64,000 nucleotides of DNA from a virus. This document shows positions 40,273 through 49,612 of the stretch, one piece after another. Both the position numbers and the translations under genes were made by a program. The stretch spans positions 43,725 through 107,724 of IMG/VR virus record IMGVR_UViG_3300024346_000018. One strand, written 5' to 3'. Under the pieces are notes generated by a model that saw only the letters and a program-made list of their open reading frames with translations, was not told where the DNA came from and made no database searches. Position 1 is the stretch's first letter; the number at the start of each line of letters is the position of its first letter.

Positions 40273-42078
40273 TTAATTAGTAATTATTCTACCGTTTATA
40301 TCATTGTCTGGAAAGCGAACTTCAAATATACTAGGATCTATTGAGGGATATAAAATACCATTTCTAGTAGCTGCATGGATATCATACCCATATGGAGAAT
40401 AATCCCCTCCATTTTTATTTATTATTTCTACTTTATGTACGGATCTAACACCAGGTACTTTTAAAAGAAGCGCATTAATCTCAGATAATATAATAGGTTG
40501 ATTTATTTGCCACGAATCTATATTAAAATAATCTCTTACTTGAGATATGCAATTAGCTAATAACTCCCTATTATTGTAACTTGGGTCTGAGTTTATTTCA
40601 AAATTAATAGCTAAATTAATATAAAATGCATTTTTAATATGAATAGAATCTGTTATCATTCTATATTCATTTAAATATGTTTTTAAATTATTTTTTAATG
40701 TATCATTTGCAGATACTAATCTTTTATCTATATTATAAGCTAAGACAAATAAATCTAAACTTAAAGGATTTTCACTAAGTAAATTACCAGTATTATTATA
40801 TGTTTCTTGTGTTATATAAGCTTTAGCTATATTGCCGTATTTTGAGGGTAAACTTAAAGTCCTAACAATATAATCTTCTTTAGTTACTGCTCTATTTTGG
40901 GAAGTGTATGAATTTAATGTATTTAAACGAATTTCTTCAATTGTATCTCCTCCTCTACCTCCAGTAGCTGGCTCCGGATTGCTAACTAATAAATTACTAA
41001 TAATTGAGTTTCTTAATTCGGTATTTAATGGATTATATTTAAACCAACTAGATGCGTTTGTAGTATCTAAAGAAGTTAATGTATTAGCAGCTACATTAGC
41101 TTGTAATCCACCTCCAACAAGATATTTAATATGTAAATCACCTGATGGAGCTATACCATAATTTTTAGTAAAAAATGTTGATGCTTTATTGTAATTATCT
41201 ATATTATCAGACACACTAGATATTAATCCTAAATTAATATTATCTAAATTAGGAATTATTTCTGTATCTAATTTAGTAGATACCCCTGCACCAAATTGAA
41301 GTTCAATTGATCCTGTAGATTTAACTCTAGTAACAAAACGTTTAGGTACTCTTTTAATTTTAAGTAAATAATCAATTTCTGAAGATCCTGAAATTGCATT
41401 ATTTATAGGTTCAAAGATAGTTTCTTGTGCTAAATATGGTACTTCATACCATTTATCTCCATCACTTCCTGTAACTTCTAAAATTTGGATTAAATTACTA
41501 TCTTGAATTGTAGTAGAAGTAAATTTAGAATTAGGAGGAATATTAGCAGTAGTTGTTTTTACTTCAGCAGATATTACACTAATTGATTTTTTTACAATAA
41601 AAAAATCTTCATTATAGTATGATATATTTGCTGATGCCGTTGATGAAAAATCAACATCATCTGTTGTAATAAATGGAGAAAAATCAACATTACTACGTAC
41701 TAAAGTATTTGAGGGAATTACTAGAGAGTAACTCATATCAATAACTCCATTATTTGAGGGCATTAATTGATATACATCTATTTTAGTAGTAGCGGCATAT
41801 GATAATTTTGGACGATATCCAAATGAATATGCTAAATTATATAAACTTTCTCTCTCTTTAGCTAAATTTAAAAAGTTTTCTTGAATTTGAGCATCAATAT
41901 AAAATGATGAAACATCACCAACATATGATGCCATTTCAATAAACATATTTCCCGGAGATGCTTCTGAAAAATCATTATAAGTATCTGGAAAATATGTTTT
42001 AGCAAATTCATTAAGTGATGTTTTAAAATCACTAAATGTTTTATTAACATATTTTATATCTTTGGTATTGTTCGCCAT
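40273..42078 (-). CDS. 6: Baseplate wedge protein gp6 (baseplate J family)
   Basis: The 601-residue protein carries the conserved opening of T4 gp6-like proteins: FSDFKTSLNEFAKTYFPDTY (about 16-35), SEASPGNMFIEMASYVGD (about 38-55) and an IDAQIQENFL...NLAYSFGYRPKL stretch. The middle contains GGRGGDTIEEIRLNTLNSYTSQNRAVTKEDY (about 372-402), typical of baseplate J proteins. gp6 dimers form the inner ring of the baseplate. The downstream partner gp25 touches its start, which is the expected pairing. Confidence 0.85.
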   Translation of the reverse strand: MANNTKDIKYVNKTFSDFKTSLNEFAKTYFPDTYNDFSEASPGNMFIEMASYVGDVSSFYIDAQIQENFLNLAKERESLYNLAYSFGYRPKLSYAATTKIDVYQLMPSNNGVIDMSYSLVIPSNTLVRSNVDFSPFITTDDVDFSSTASANISYYNEDFFIVKKSISVISAEVKTTTANIPPNSKFTSTTIQDSNLIQILEVTGSDGDKWYEVPYLAQETIFEPINNAISGSSEIDYLLKIKRVPKRFVTRVKSTGSIELQFGAGVSTKLDTEIIPNLDNINLGLISSVSDNIDNYNKASTFFTKNYGIAPSGDLHIKYLVGGGLQANVAANTLTSLDTTNASSWFKYNPLNTELRNSIISNLLVSNPEPATGGRGGDTIEEIRLNTLNSYTSQNRAVTKEDYIVRTLSLPSKYGNIAKAYITQETYNNTGNLLSENPLSLDLFVLAYNIDKRLVSANDTLKNNLKTYLNEYRMITDSIHIKNAFYINLAINFEINSDPSYNNRELLANCISQVRDYFNIDSWQINQPIILSEINALLLKVPGVRSVHKVEIINKNGGDYSPYGYDIHAATRNGILYPSIDPSIFEVRFPDNDINGRIITN

Positions 42079-45523: not shown

Positions 45524-46279
45524 TTAGATTTTTACAAATCCTGTTTCGTAATATTCATTATATAAATTATAATATACCTTTTTTAATACTTTTATTACTT
45601 TAGTTATTTGAAAGGTATCAACATCTATCATTTCACGAATATAAATGTAAATAGCTTTTTTATTAAATATTTCTAAATTTTCACGTTTACGAAACAATTC
45701 TAAAATTACATCCGCTGTTTTTTGATCTTGGGTTCTTGGAAAAAATTTTTCAAGATGAGCATCCATATAACGAACAAAATAAGAAATAAAATCATTTAAA
45801 TCAGCATCGTTATTTGATTCACGAACCAAATCTTCAACTATAATTTTATCTTCATCTACTTCTTCTAAAGTACCTTTACCTTTAATCTTTTTATAGTTTT
45901 TTTCGTTATATATAATTAAATAACGTTTAGCAATAGTACCAAAATAAGAATATGCTTTACCTTTAGATTGATCATATAAATGAAGTTTCTCTAAAAGAAA
46001 AGCTACTACCTCATGTTTTAACTCATTTATAGTATCAACATCAGTATAATAAAACTTAAATGTGTGAATTATATTTTCTGCTAATTTATGGAATGCGTAG
46101 TCAATACGTTGATCAAATATATGATTACGATTATCTTGATCTTTAGAGGCTAAATATTCTATAATTGCTTCTTCGGTATCTGAAGTAAAATATAAAATTG
46201 ATTTTTTAGGTTTACGTTTACGTATTGTTCCTTTTTTAGTTAAAAGTACCTCTTCTTCTGGAGGGGATATTAAATCCAT
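45524..46279 (-). CDS. 55: Late-transcription sigma factor, gp55-like
   Basis: The 251-residue protein resembles T4 gp55, the minimal sigma factor that directs host RNA polymerase to late promoters. Typical residues are IIHTFKFYYTDVDTINELKHE (about 94-114), HLYDQSKGKAYSYFGTIAKRYLI (about 123-145) and YNEKNYKK. These correspond to sigma region 2, which contacts the polymerase clamp and the -10 element. The N-terminal 40 residues are basic and probably disordered. It is placed directly upstream of the tail transcript. The ATATTTATAA elements before structural operons are candidate targets. Confidence 0.8.
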   Translation of the reverse strand: MDLISPPEEEVLLTKKGTIRKRKPKKSILYFTSDTEEAIIEYLASKDQDNRNHIFDQRIDYAFHKLAENIIHTFKFYYTDVDTINELKHEVVAFLLEKLHLYDQSKGKAYSYFGTIAKRYLIIYNEKNYKKIKGKGTLEEVDEDKIIVEDLVRESNNDADLNDFISYFVRYMDAHLEKFFPRTQDQKTADVILELFRKRENLEIFNKKAIYIYIREMIDVDTFQITKVIKVLKKVYYNLYNEYYETGFVKI

Positions 46280-47526: not shown

Positions 47527-47574
47527 AATTTAATACATTTATACGTATATACGTGTTTGGTGTGATGTTTGGTC

Positions 47575-47590
47575 AACGTTTGCAAACGTT
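47575..47590. promoter_or_regulatory. 16-bp perfect palindrome, operator candidate
   Basis: AACGTTTGCAAACGTT is a perfect palindrome of the shape bound by LacI/PurR-type repressors. It lies about 50 bases upstream of the 47335-47526 start and downstream of a TATATTTA element near 47648-47655, so it could control the HD hydrolase-gp55 transcript. Confidence 0.5.
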
Positions 47591-47676
47591 TGTAACATTT
47601 CGCGTTTATTTTCCAATTGTTTGGGTTTCAAACCATCCCAACGTTTAAATATACGTGGGACACTTTTAACGCCAAA

Positions 47677-48005: not shown

Positions 48006-48476
48006 TTACGTGAGATCCTCGTTAGGTATGCCTAAAACTTCAAAAATCACGTCGTGCGCAATATCAAAAGAAACAGCAAAACCTTCGCGATTATCTTCAA
48101 CTCTAAAATCATTCAAACGTCGGTGAATTTCCTGTTCCATAGCATAAGGATTCTGGGTGAACCAAAAATCTCGTACTTGCCATGGTGAAATAACACCCGA
48201 AGAAGAATTAATTTCATTAACACGGTCCGCAACCGAACGCTCAGTAAATCCAATTTTAAAAACACCGGGTACCGATGTATTTTGTAAAACATAGATGTGA
48301 CCCGTTGAAAAAGGTGTTTTTTTATTCCCATATTTCTTTTTGAAATAACGCACATTCCATGCATTTTTTCCTACTTCAACGAAATCGTACGCTTTAGCCA
48401 TTTTGACGTTATCTCGCACTTGTTGAGCGTTCATCTCGTAAAATTCGGACGTGTCCTTACCTGTTAAATTTTCCAT
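48006..48476 (-). CDS. T5orf172 / Mug113-type GIY-YIG protein
   Basis: The 156-residue protein contains GHIYVLQNTSVPGVFKIGF (about 59-77), TERSVADRVNEINSSSG and, later, MEQEIHRRLNDFRV (about 112-125). This is the T5orf172/Mug113 variant of the GIY-YIG fold (YVL...VKIG.T....R, then a glutamate helix). Such proteins are frequent in phages, often with nuclease or DNA-binding roles that are not defined. Confidence 0.75.
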   Translation of the reverse strand: MENLTGKDTSEFYEMNAQQVRDNVKMAKAYDFVEVGKNAWNVRYFKKKYGNKKTPFSTGHIYVLQNTSVPGVFKIGFTERSVADRVNEINSSSGVISPWQVRDFWFTQNPYAMEQEIHRRLNDFRVEDNREGFAVSFDIAHDVIFEVLGIPNEDLT

Positions 48477-48662: not shown

Positions 48663-48803
48663 AACCGGTGAATGTGGTAAGGACATTTTGTATATACAAA
48701 CCGGTTTCCAAAAAATTTTGTAGAGGTTAAAATTTGAGATCTTGGATTTTTTATTCAAAAGGGTTATTTTGGAATTTAAAATTTCCTTATTATGTTTATA
48801 GTG

Positions 48804-48832
48804 TTGAAACGTTCATTGAAATATTATATTTG
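48804..48832 (+). promoter_or_regulatory. Bacteroidota-type promoter on the plus strand
   Basis: TTG at 48804-48806 and TATATTTG at 48825-48832 are 18 bases apart. This matches the -33 (TTG) and -7 (TAnnTTTG) consensus of primary-sigma promoters in Bacteroidota. It is the only plus-strand promoter I noticed that precedes a structured element, and its last G is unlike the phage-type TATATTTA elements elsewhere. Confidence 0.55.
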
Positions 48833-48837
48833 TATAT

Positions 48838-48993
48838 ACGAGGCGCGGGGTGTAAAATTGTATACGTGTTGAGAGTGTGTATGGTTAAGACACGGCCCTA
48901 CCCGCCGCGCGTAGGGACCGCGGCCAGCGTGGGAGCAACCCGCGCACGAGTCGCGGTCGACCCGCTATCGTCCGTCTCTTTTGAGATTTTTTT
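48838..48993 (+). ncRNA. Candidate structured GC-rich non-coding RNA
   Basis: By count, 64 of 84 bases from 48891 to 48974 are G or C, in a genome near 30% G+C. Stem 1 is CCCTAC with GTAGGG (48896-48901 and 48911-48916). Stem 2 is ACCGCG with CGCGGT (48917-48922 and 48952-48957). It encloses hairpin GCGTGGG with CCCGCGC (48927-48933 and 48939-48945, one G-U, AGCAA loop). Stems 1 and 2 abut and could stack. A promoter precedes and a T-tract hairpin follows. Overlapping reading frames show no protein-like composition. Alternatives are a replication-origin structure or a foreign insertion; no Rfam family is recognised. Confidence 0.5.
48974..48993 (+). terminator. Weak T-tract hairpin at the end of the GC-rich element
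   Basis: TCTC and GAGA (48975-48978 and 48983-48986, extendable by a G-U pair) close a TTTT loop and are followed by seven T. The stem is short, so termination efficiency is uncertain. Confidence 0.4.
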
Positions 48994-49070
48994 AGTACAC
49001 GCGATTTTTTTGTCATACGCGCGTCTTTTTGTAATACACGCAGACTACCTAACCTTTGTGTAATACGTCA
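48987..49070. repeat. Iteron-like direct repeats, TTTTTGTnATACACGC
   Basis: Three imperfect copies of about 20 bases begin at 48987, 49005 and 49026. Each is a T-run, then GTnATAC or AGTACAC, then an ACGC core. A diverged fourth copy lies at 49054-49070 (CTTTGTGTAATACGTCA). Spacing of about one to two helical turns fits protein binding, for example a replication initiator. Confidence 0.5.
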
Positions 49071-49246: not shown

Positions 49247-49612
49247 CTATTTAGCCACTACCTTTGATTTAACCTTGGTCTTAGCCTTAGTAGGCACTTC
49301 AATCACAATCGCTTTAGGACGTCCTAATTTTAATGTCCCGTTTGCACGACGAGCTTCTAAATCAGCTATACGTTTTGCTCTAGCGCTTTCTGGATTCGTA
49401 GGACGTCCACGCTTAATATCTAGACCTAATGCTTGCTTCATTAATCGCATTTCGCTTTTAATAGCATTCATTGAACCTGGAACTGATGGACGACCACGCT
49501 TAATTAAACCTGCTTCTCGTTTTGCTTTAATTTCAGCTAAACGGATTTGTCTTACTGAAGTTGGATTAACTGGACGACCTAATTGTGCTGTGTTGTTTTC
49601 TTGATTTTTCAT
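49247..49612 (-). CDS. AT-hook repeat DNA-binding protein
   Basis: The 121-residue basic protein holds four GRP-type AT-hook cores: LGRPVNP (about 12-18), KRGRPSVPG (about 38-46), KRGRPTNPES (about 66-75) and LGRPKA (about 99-104). Each of the first units is followed by a helix like SARAKRIADLEARRANGTLK, which gives a repeat of roughly 30 residues. AT-hooks bind the minor groove of AT-rich DNA, so it could coat or bend this AT-rich phage genome. It is served by a class A promoter 44 bases upstream. Confidence 0.7.
   Translation of the reverse strand: MKNQENNTAQLGRPVNPTSVRQIRLAEIKAKREAGLIKRGRPSVPGSMNAIKSEMRLMKQALGLDIKRGRPTNPESARAKRIADLEARRANGTLKLGRPKAIVIEVPTKAKTKVKSKVVAK

Follow-up and report, generated by a model that had tools for sequence, protein, structure and literature searches.

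A single-copy array of 11-bp repeats, probably an iteron-type replication origin, in a clade of uncultured T4-superfamily phages

Introduction

Bacteriophage T4 has at least five replication origins, and the iterons described in its genome are without a proven role (PMC3016281). At oriE these take the form of 12-nt repeats that are conserved in the syntenic regions of close relatives and whose function is ill defined (PMC3016281). The oriE locus adjoins gene 6 and segC, which encodes a GIY-YIG endonuclease, and the primer RNA of this origin is antisense to gene 5. The R-loop origins oriF and oriG combine a promoter with an AT-rich unwinding region (PMC3016281). Iterons of the RepA_N plasmid type are direct repeats that lie in a non-coding region and are bound by the initiator (PMC7145576). 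Type II and III centromeres likewise consist of short tandem repeats at a single locus, sometimes arranged around a promoter (PMC5016525).

Here we describe a repeat array from a 64,000-nt stretch of viral DNA (the window) that forms the final 64 kb of a 107.7-kb contig. A sequence-only reading of the window had pointed to a GC-rich, foldable plus-strand element and had proposed that it is either a phage non-coding RNA or an RNA-primed origin. From comparison with homologous loci we consider it probable, with moderate confidence, that the array is an iteron-type replication origin of a T4-superfamily phage clade with a probable Bacteroidota host.

Results

The entire cis element is contained in a gene-free gap of ~360 bp (48687-49044), bounded on the left by the start of a DUF1660-like gene at 48686 and on the right by the end of a 50-aa open reading frame at 49045, both on the minus strand. 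As had been claimed, an 84-base stretch of about 76% G+C lies in this gap and genes run on the minus strand only, which we find to be exclusively so for genes of at least 100 aa. The highest-GC 84-nt stretch of the whole window is 48893-48976 on the plus strand, with 76.2% G+C and a runner-up of 53.6%, and this region is also the top 100-nt GC peak within the contig. Left of the array, alignments of relatives reveal a conserved AT-rich segment (48698-48831), a candidate unwinding region, of which ~60 bp are absent in five relatives (L020, L023, L025, L028 and L033). The promoter-like sequence and the closing T-tract hairpin that had been reported are both present on the plus strand, the former as a Bacteroidota-type TTG-N18-TATATTTG site at 48804-48832 (TTG at 48804, TATATTTG at 48825-48832) and the latter as a terminator-like CTCTTTTGAG hairpin with a T7 tract at 48974-48993 that distant copies do not conserve. 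Between them are a GTATATAC palindrome (48832-48839) and, in two alignments (A2 and A5), a conserved plus-strand block TGTTGAGRGTG at 48867-48877 that reads GTTGAGAAT in distant copies.

Several further features were noted nearby. Degenerate ~19-bp plus-strand repeats, TTTTTTTGTNATACNCGCG, found by direct sequence inspection at 48986-49046 to the right of the array, carry TTTTTTTGT and CGCG, and relatives show similar T-tract repeats. About a dozen close relatives have a long hairpin, CACGGGAAGCCGCRCGTC...TGCGGCTCCGTG, to the right of the element (L004, L007, L018, L019, L022, L023, L027, L028, L033, L036 and L041); the window has none. A second non-coding gap, 47527-47676, contains a stretch resembling the start of the element (TATACGTGTTTGGTGTG) with a fold z of -1.88. 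The GTATATAC palindrome occurs three times in the gene gaps around the T5orf172 gene, at 47545, 48690 and 48832 of the window, and in the close relatives examined two to three such sites recur at matching positions.

The gene flanking the array at 48006-48476 on the minus strand encodes a T5orf172 endonuclease of the GIY-YIG superfamily (Pfam PF10544, E 4.1e-16). About 6 kb from the array, at 40273-42078 on the same strand, lies a T4 gp6-like baseplate wedge gene (PHROG 6, E 4.1e-23), whose product is 46.5% identical to the baseplate wedge of immuto, a Flavobacterium phage of the T4 superfamily; the terminase large subunit of the contig is 51% identical to that of immuto. Beside the array, at 49247-49612, is a gene for an AT-hook-like protein in which an (R)GRP motif recurs; longer, GC-rich versions occur in L078, L091, L103 and L120. 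A 251-aa protein (45524-46279) is conserved in hundreds of contigs and is possibly a late sigma factor; its match to Sigma70_r2 is weak and falls below the cut-off (E 0.067).

About 85 IMG/VR contigs contain homologs of the element, and 78 of these are distinct and have full context. The close set, obtained by protein and DNA searches, comprises 20 copies (19 distinct) of 156-157 nt with a mean identity of 87%, all at the same location, so that the element, for which absence from close relatives had been considered, is present in 19 distinct close copies. An alignment of the 251-aa neighbor protein led to 80 further loci, which were scanned with an element profile, giving 25 matches (E 1e-49 to 3e-4), of which 23 are new; their orientation is unchanged and most lie 1.6-3.3 kb upstream of the gene for the 251-aa protein. 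At loci without a profile match clear 11-bp arrays were not seen, the core in L068 being weak and truncated. By profile there is one copy in the contig of the window and one in each of four genomes (G001-G004) of 169-183 kb that have terminal repeats and hence are taken as complete; by pattern, exactly one copy is present in seven of nine large records and none in the other two. A core pattern of the wider family, to which the window's own sub-type does not conform and whose counts are limited to that extent, is present in 64 IMG/VR contigs and absent from all 84,980 prokaryote genomes searched. With the same restriction on the sub-type, there is no evidence that the element is an insertion of host genome sequence. 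Searches of cultured phages with the element by blastn and megablast gave no match. Three of the four matches from a first DNA pattern scan (L015-L017) were discarded as chance, since they match the element region over 18-21 bases only, and other GC-rich islands in relatives, considered as extra arrays, are mostly genes for AT-hook-like proteins instead. The clade carrying the array is a large and widespread T4-superfamily phage group, probably with a Bacteroidota host.

Alignment of these copies establishes a conserved layout that begins with GTATATA (present in 75/78 copies), continues with a 26-30 base core ending in CGTGGGAGCA and is completed by at least three head-to-tail 11-bp repeats with the consensus nnYCGCKATCR. 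The CGC core is preserved in 224 of the 234 repeat units of the 78 copies. Identity at a lag of 11 is 0.654 for 39 copies (shuffle mean 0.271, largest shuffle 0.328) and 0.645 for all 78 (shuffle mean 0.265, largest shuffle 0.294), with values near 0.15 at lags of 10 and 12. The units in the window occupy 48916-48970 on the plus strand and read, in order, GACCGCGGCCA (unit 0, 48916-48926; GACCGCAATTG in distant copies), GCGTGGGAGCA (unit 1, 48927-48937; near-invariant yet divergent from the repeat consensus), and the iterons ACCCGCGCACG (48938-48948), AGTCGCGGTCG (48949-48959) and ACCCGCTATCG (48960-48970). Periodicity in the window copy by itself is weak (shuffle p 0.004) and other stretches score equally high, and for this reason the register becomes visible through family comparison only; it was overlooked in the sequence-only reading. 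The 11-bp repeat disfavors a coding role, as does the fact that some close copies differ in length by 1 nt. An array of iterons with one repeat per helical turn points instead to a site at which protein binds DNA.

The position of this site was compared with strand composition in the four complete genomes, where more than 99% of coding bases lie on a single strand and the coding strand, therefore, cannot account for changes in skew. The cumulative GC-skew maximum is found at +23, -39, -2160 and -2133 bp relative to the array. In order to check for amino-acid effects the skew was recalculated at four-fold degenerate sites. Relative to the array, the cumulative maximum then falls at -59 bp (G001) and -5.7 kb (G003), and in G002 and G004 it is 48 and 28 kb distant, respectively. 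The steepest local fall at these sites is less than 5 kb from the array in G001, G003 and G004, and the step at the array ranks 50th of 732 positions in G002 and 87th of 718 in G004. The four genomes are mutually related and hence are not independent tests, and the step might reflect gene modules because the array is at the border between small and structural genes. The skew evidence favors an origin without proving one.

Phased 11-bp iterons, a single copy, a total-skew extremum at or near the array and a setting like that of T4 oriE are together best explained by an origin. Of the earlier proposal of an RNA-primed origin these data sustain the origin; that an RNA provides the primer is possible.

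A protein-binding array of this kind could also be an operator, or a centromere-like site of the ParR/parC or TubR/tubC type, through which a phage protein controls divergent gene modules or organizes phage DNA. We regard this as unlikely, even though short tandem repeats at a single locus, in parC and tubC sometimes in two blocks, also typify type II and III centromeres (PMC5016525), and even though a gene for an AT-hook-like protein and three GTATATAC sites are close by. No relatives of ParM, ParR, TubZ or ParA, that is, none of the partition genes expected of such a system, were found beside the array among the neighboring proteins scanned, the absence of the wider-family core from the 84,980 prokaryote genomes gives no sign of a maintained replicon, and a control or partition site leaves the skew extremum unexplained.

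Quite improbable, in our assessment, is a structured plus-strand non-coding RNA of ~150 nt, antisense to the direction of the genes and transcribed from its own host-type promoter. The window copy does have the promoter-like site and the T-tract hairpin, and its predicted plus-strand fold of -64.6 kcal/mol is more stable than expected (z -2.61, with 0/200 shuffles as good; minus strand, z -1.29), in keeping with the strong foldability originally claimed. In the relatives, however, this excess is not conserved, with mean z values across the 19 close copies of -0.80 and -0.86 for the plus and minus strands, respectively. The covariation test that had been suggested for homologs was negative: the consensus fold of the 19-copy alignment shows no gain over column-shuffled alignments (z -0.85), and a conserved secondary structure backed by covariation was not found in 19 and then in 39 copies, the stems being lost in distant ones. 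Pair counts for the window fold are barely above shuffles in close relatives, and a trimmed structure scores slightly better but was selected from the same sequences. Of the 16 bp that make up the main stem, close copies retain 12-16 and distant copies 7-12. Several stem positions do vary by G-U tolerant plus-strand steps in close relatives, pair 22-44, for example, occurring as UA, UG and CG. The GTATATA site carries the promoter-like octamer TAnnTTTG in 21/78 copies (a GCG-type end in 32/78), and a T-run of at least six follows close behind the array in 24/78. Rfam contains no match at gathering level, a lenient E-value search returning chance-level matches at E 6-8, in agreement with the earlier statement that no matching RNA family was known. 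Because stability, stems, promoter and terminator all vary between relatives, and since an RNA fold would not predict an exact 11-base register, we reject a structured RNA. The strong predicted fold presumably arises as a side effect of the repeats, which are GC-rich and in part self-complementary and have CGCG cores able to pair with one another.

Finally, it is highly improbable that the array is a target or relic of the neighboring T5orf172 endonuclease, as a homing or origin-directed site kept by the nuclease, since, for all that the gene adjoins the array in most relatives and that the ICP1 T5orf172 nuclease Odn cuts a satellite origin and requires its iterons (PMC8263062), conserved copies without a T5orf172 gene detected nearby in at least five loci (L091, L103, L109, L110 and L120) speak against maintenance of the site by the nuclease; a T5orf172 gene that homed beside an origin is more likely.

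Discussion

If the array is an origin, as we think probable, a putative phage initiator would contact the phased repeats from a single face of the helix, wrapping or bending the DNA, and the AT-rich left-hand segment would then open and the replisome load. In the clade of the window a short plus-strand transcript from near 48838 might supply a primer, in the manner of the T4 R-loop RNAs, although this is conjecture; a transcript with such a role is possible.

A broader proposal would combine a new family of origins, based on 11-bp CGC iterons and conserved throughout a large T4-superfamily clade of uncultured phages, with a T5orf172 nuclease that is tied to the origin and maybe cuts the origins of competitors. 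In such a combination the nuclease may be an Odn-like weapon, carried at the phage's own origin and directed against competing phages or satellites. Taken as a whole the proposal is speculative and on balance we doubt it.

The role of the oriE iterons is ill defined according to the T4 review, and the present clade makes the iteron question testable, as it supplies an independent, intergenic, single-copy array in at least 78 distinct copies together with skew evidence for an origin. In addition, the array provides a short motif by which the probable origin can be found in many genomes of uncultured phages. The recurrent association of an origin-type array with a T5orf172 nuclease ties phage origins to competition between phages and between phages and satellites.

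Among iteron origins, those of RepA_N plasmids and of the PLE of V. cholerae share with the window family direct repeats in non-coding DNA, but their repeats are longer and semi-palindromic (~30 bp in PLE, PMC8263062), in contrast to 11-bp non-palindromic units and an initiator that is putative. Like T4 oriF and oriG the window has a promoter-like site and an AT-rich segment; no iterons are described at those origins, however, and the promoter-like site of the window family is not conserved. Immuto has two arrays of ~12-bp ACCCGTT repeats, which flank GTATATACGATGTGTAAAATGAT and lie in a gap of 540 bp that separates plus-strand genes (L046 11315-11900, corresponding to ~66.3-66.9 kb of NC_055915), and its skew switches at ~74-76 kb, 8-9 kb off these arrays.

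The comparison with T4 oriE is one of repeat layout and gene setting and not of sequence similarity, and the T4 iterons did not stand out in a simple lag scan. The T4 repeats are 12 nt, as opposed to 11 bp in the window family, and the T4 site is located inside gene 5, with repEA and repEB, genes for proteins of 45-50 aa, whereas the array of the window is intergenic. A further feature of oriE is a primer RNA that is antisense to a late baseplate gene. What the two loci have in common are evenly spaced short direct repeats and synteny with a GIY-YIG endonuclease gene, which lies alongside in both, and with the gene 6 baseplate wedge, just downstream in T4 and ~6 kb off here.
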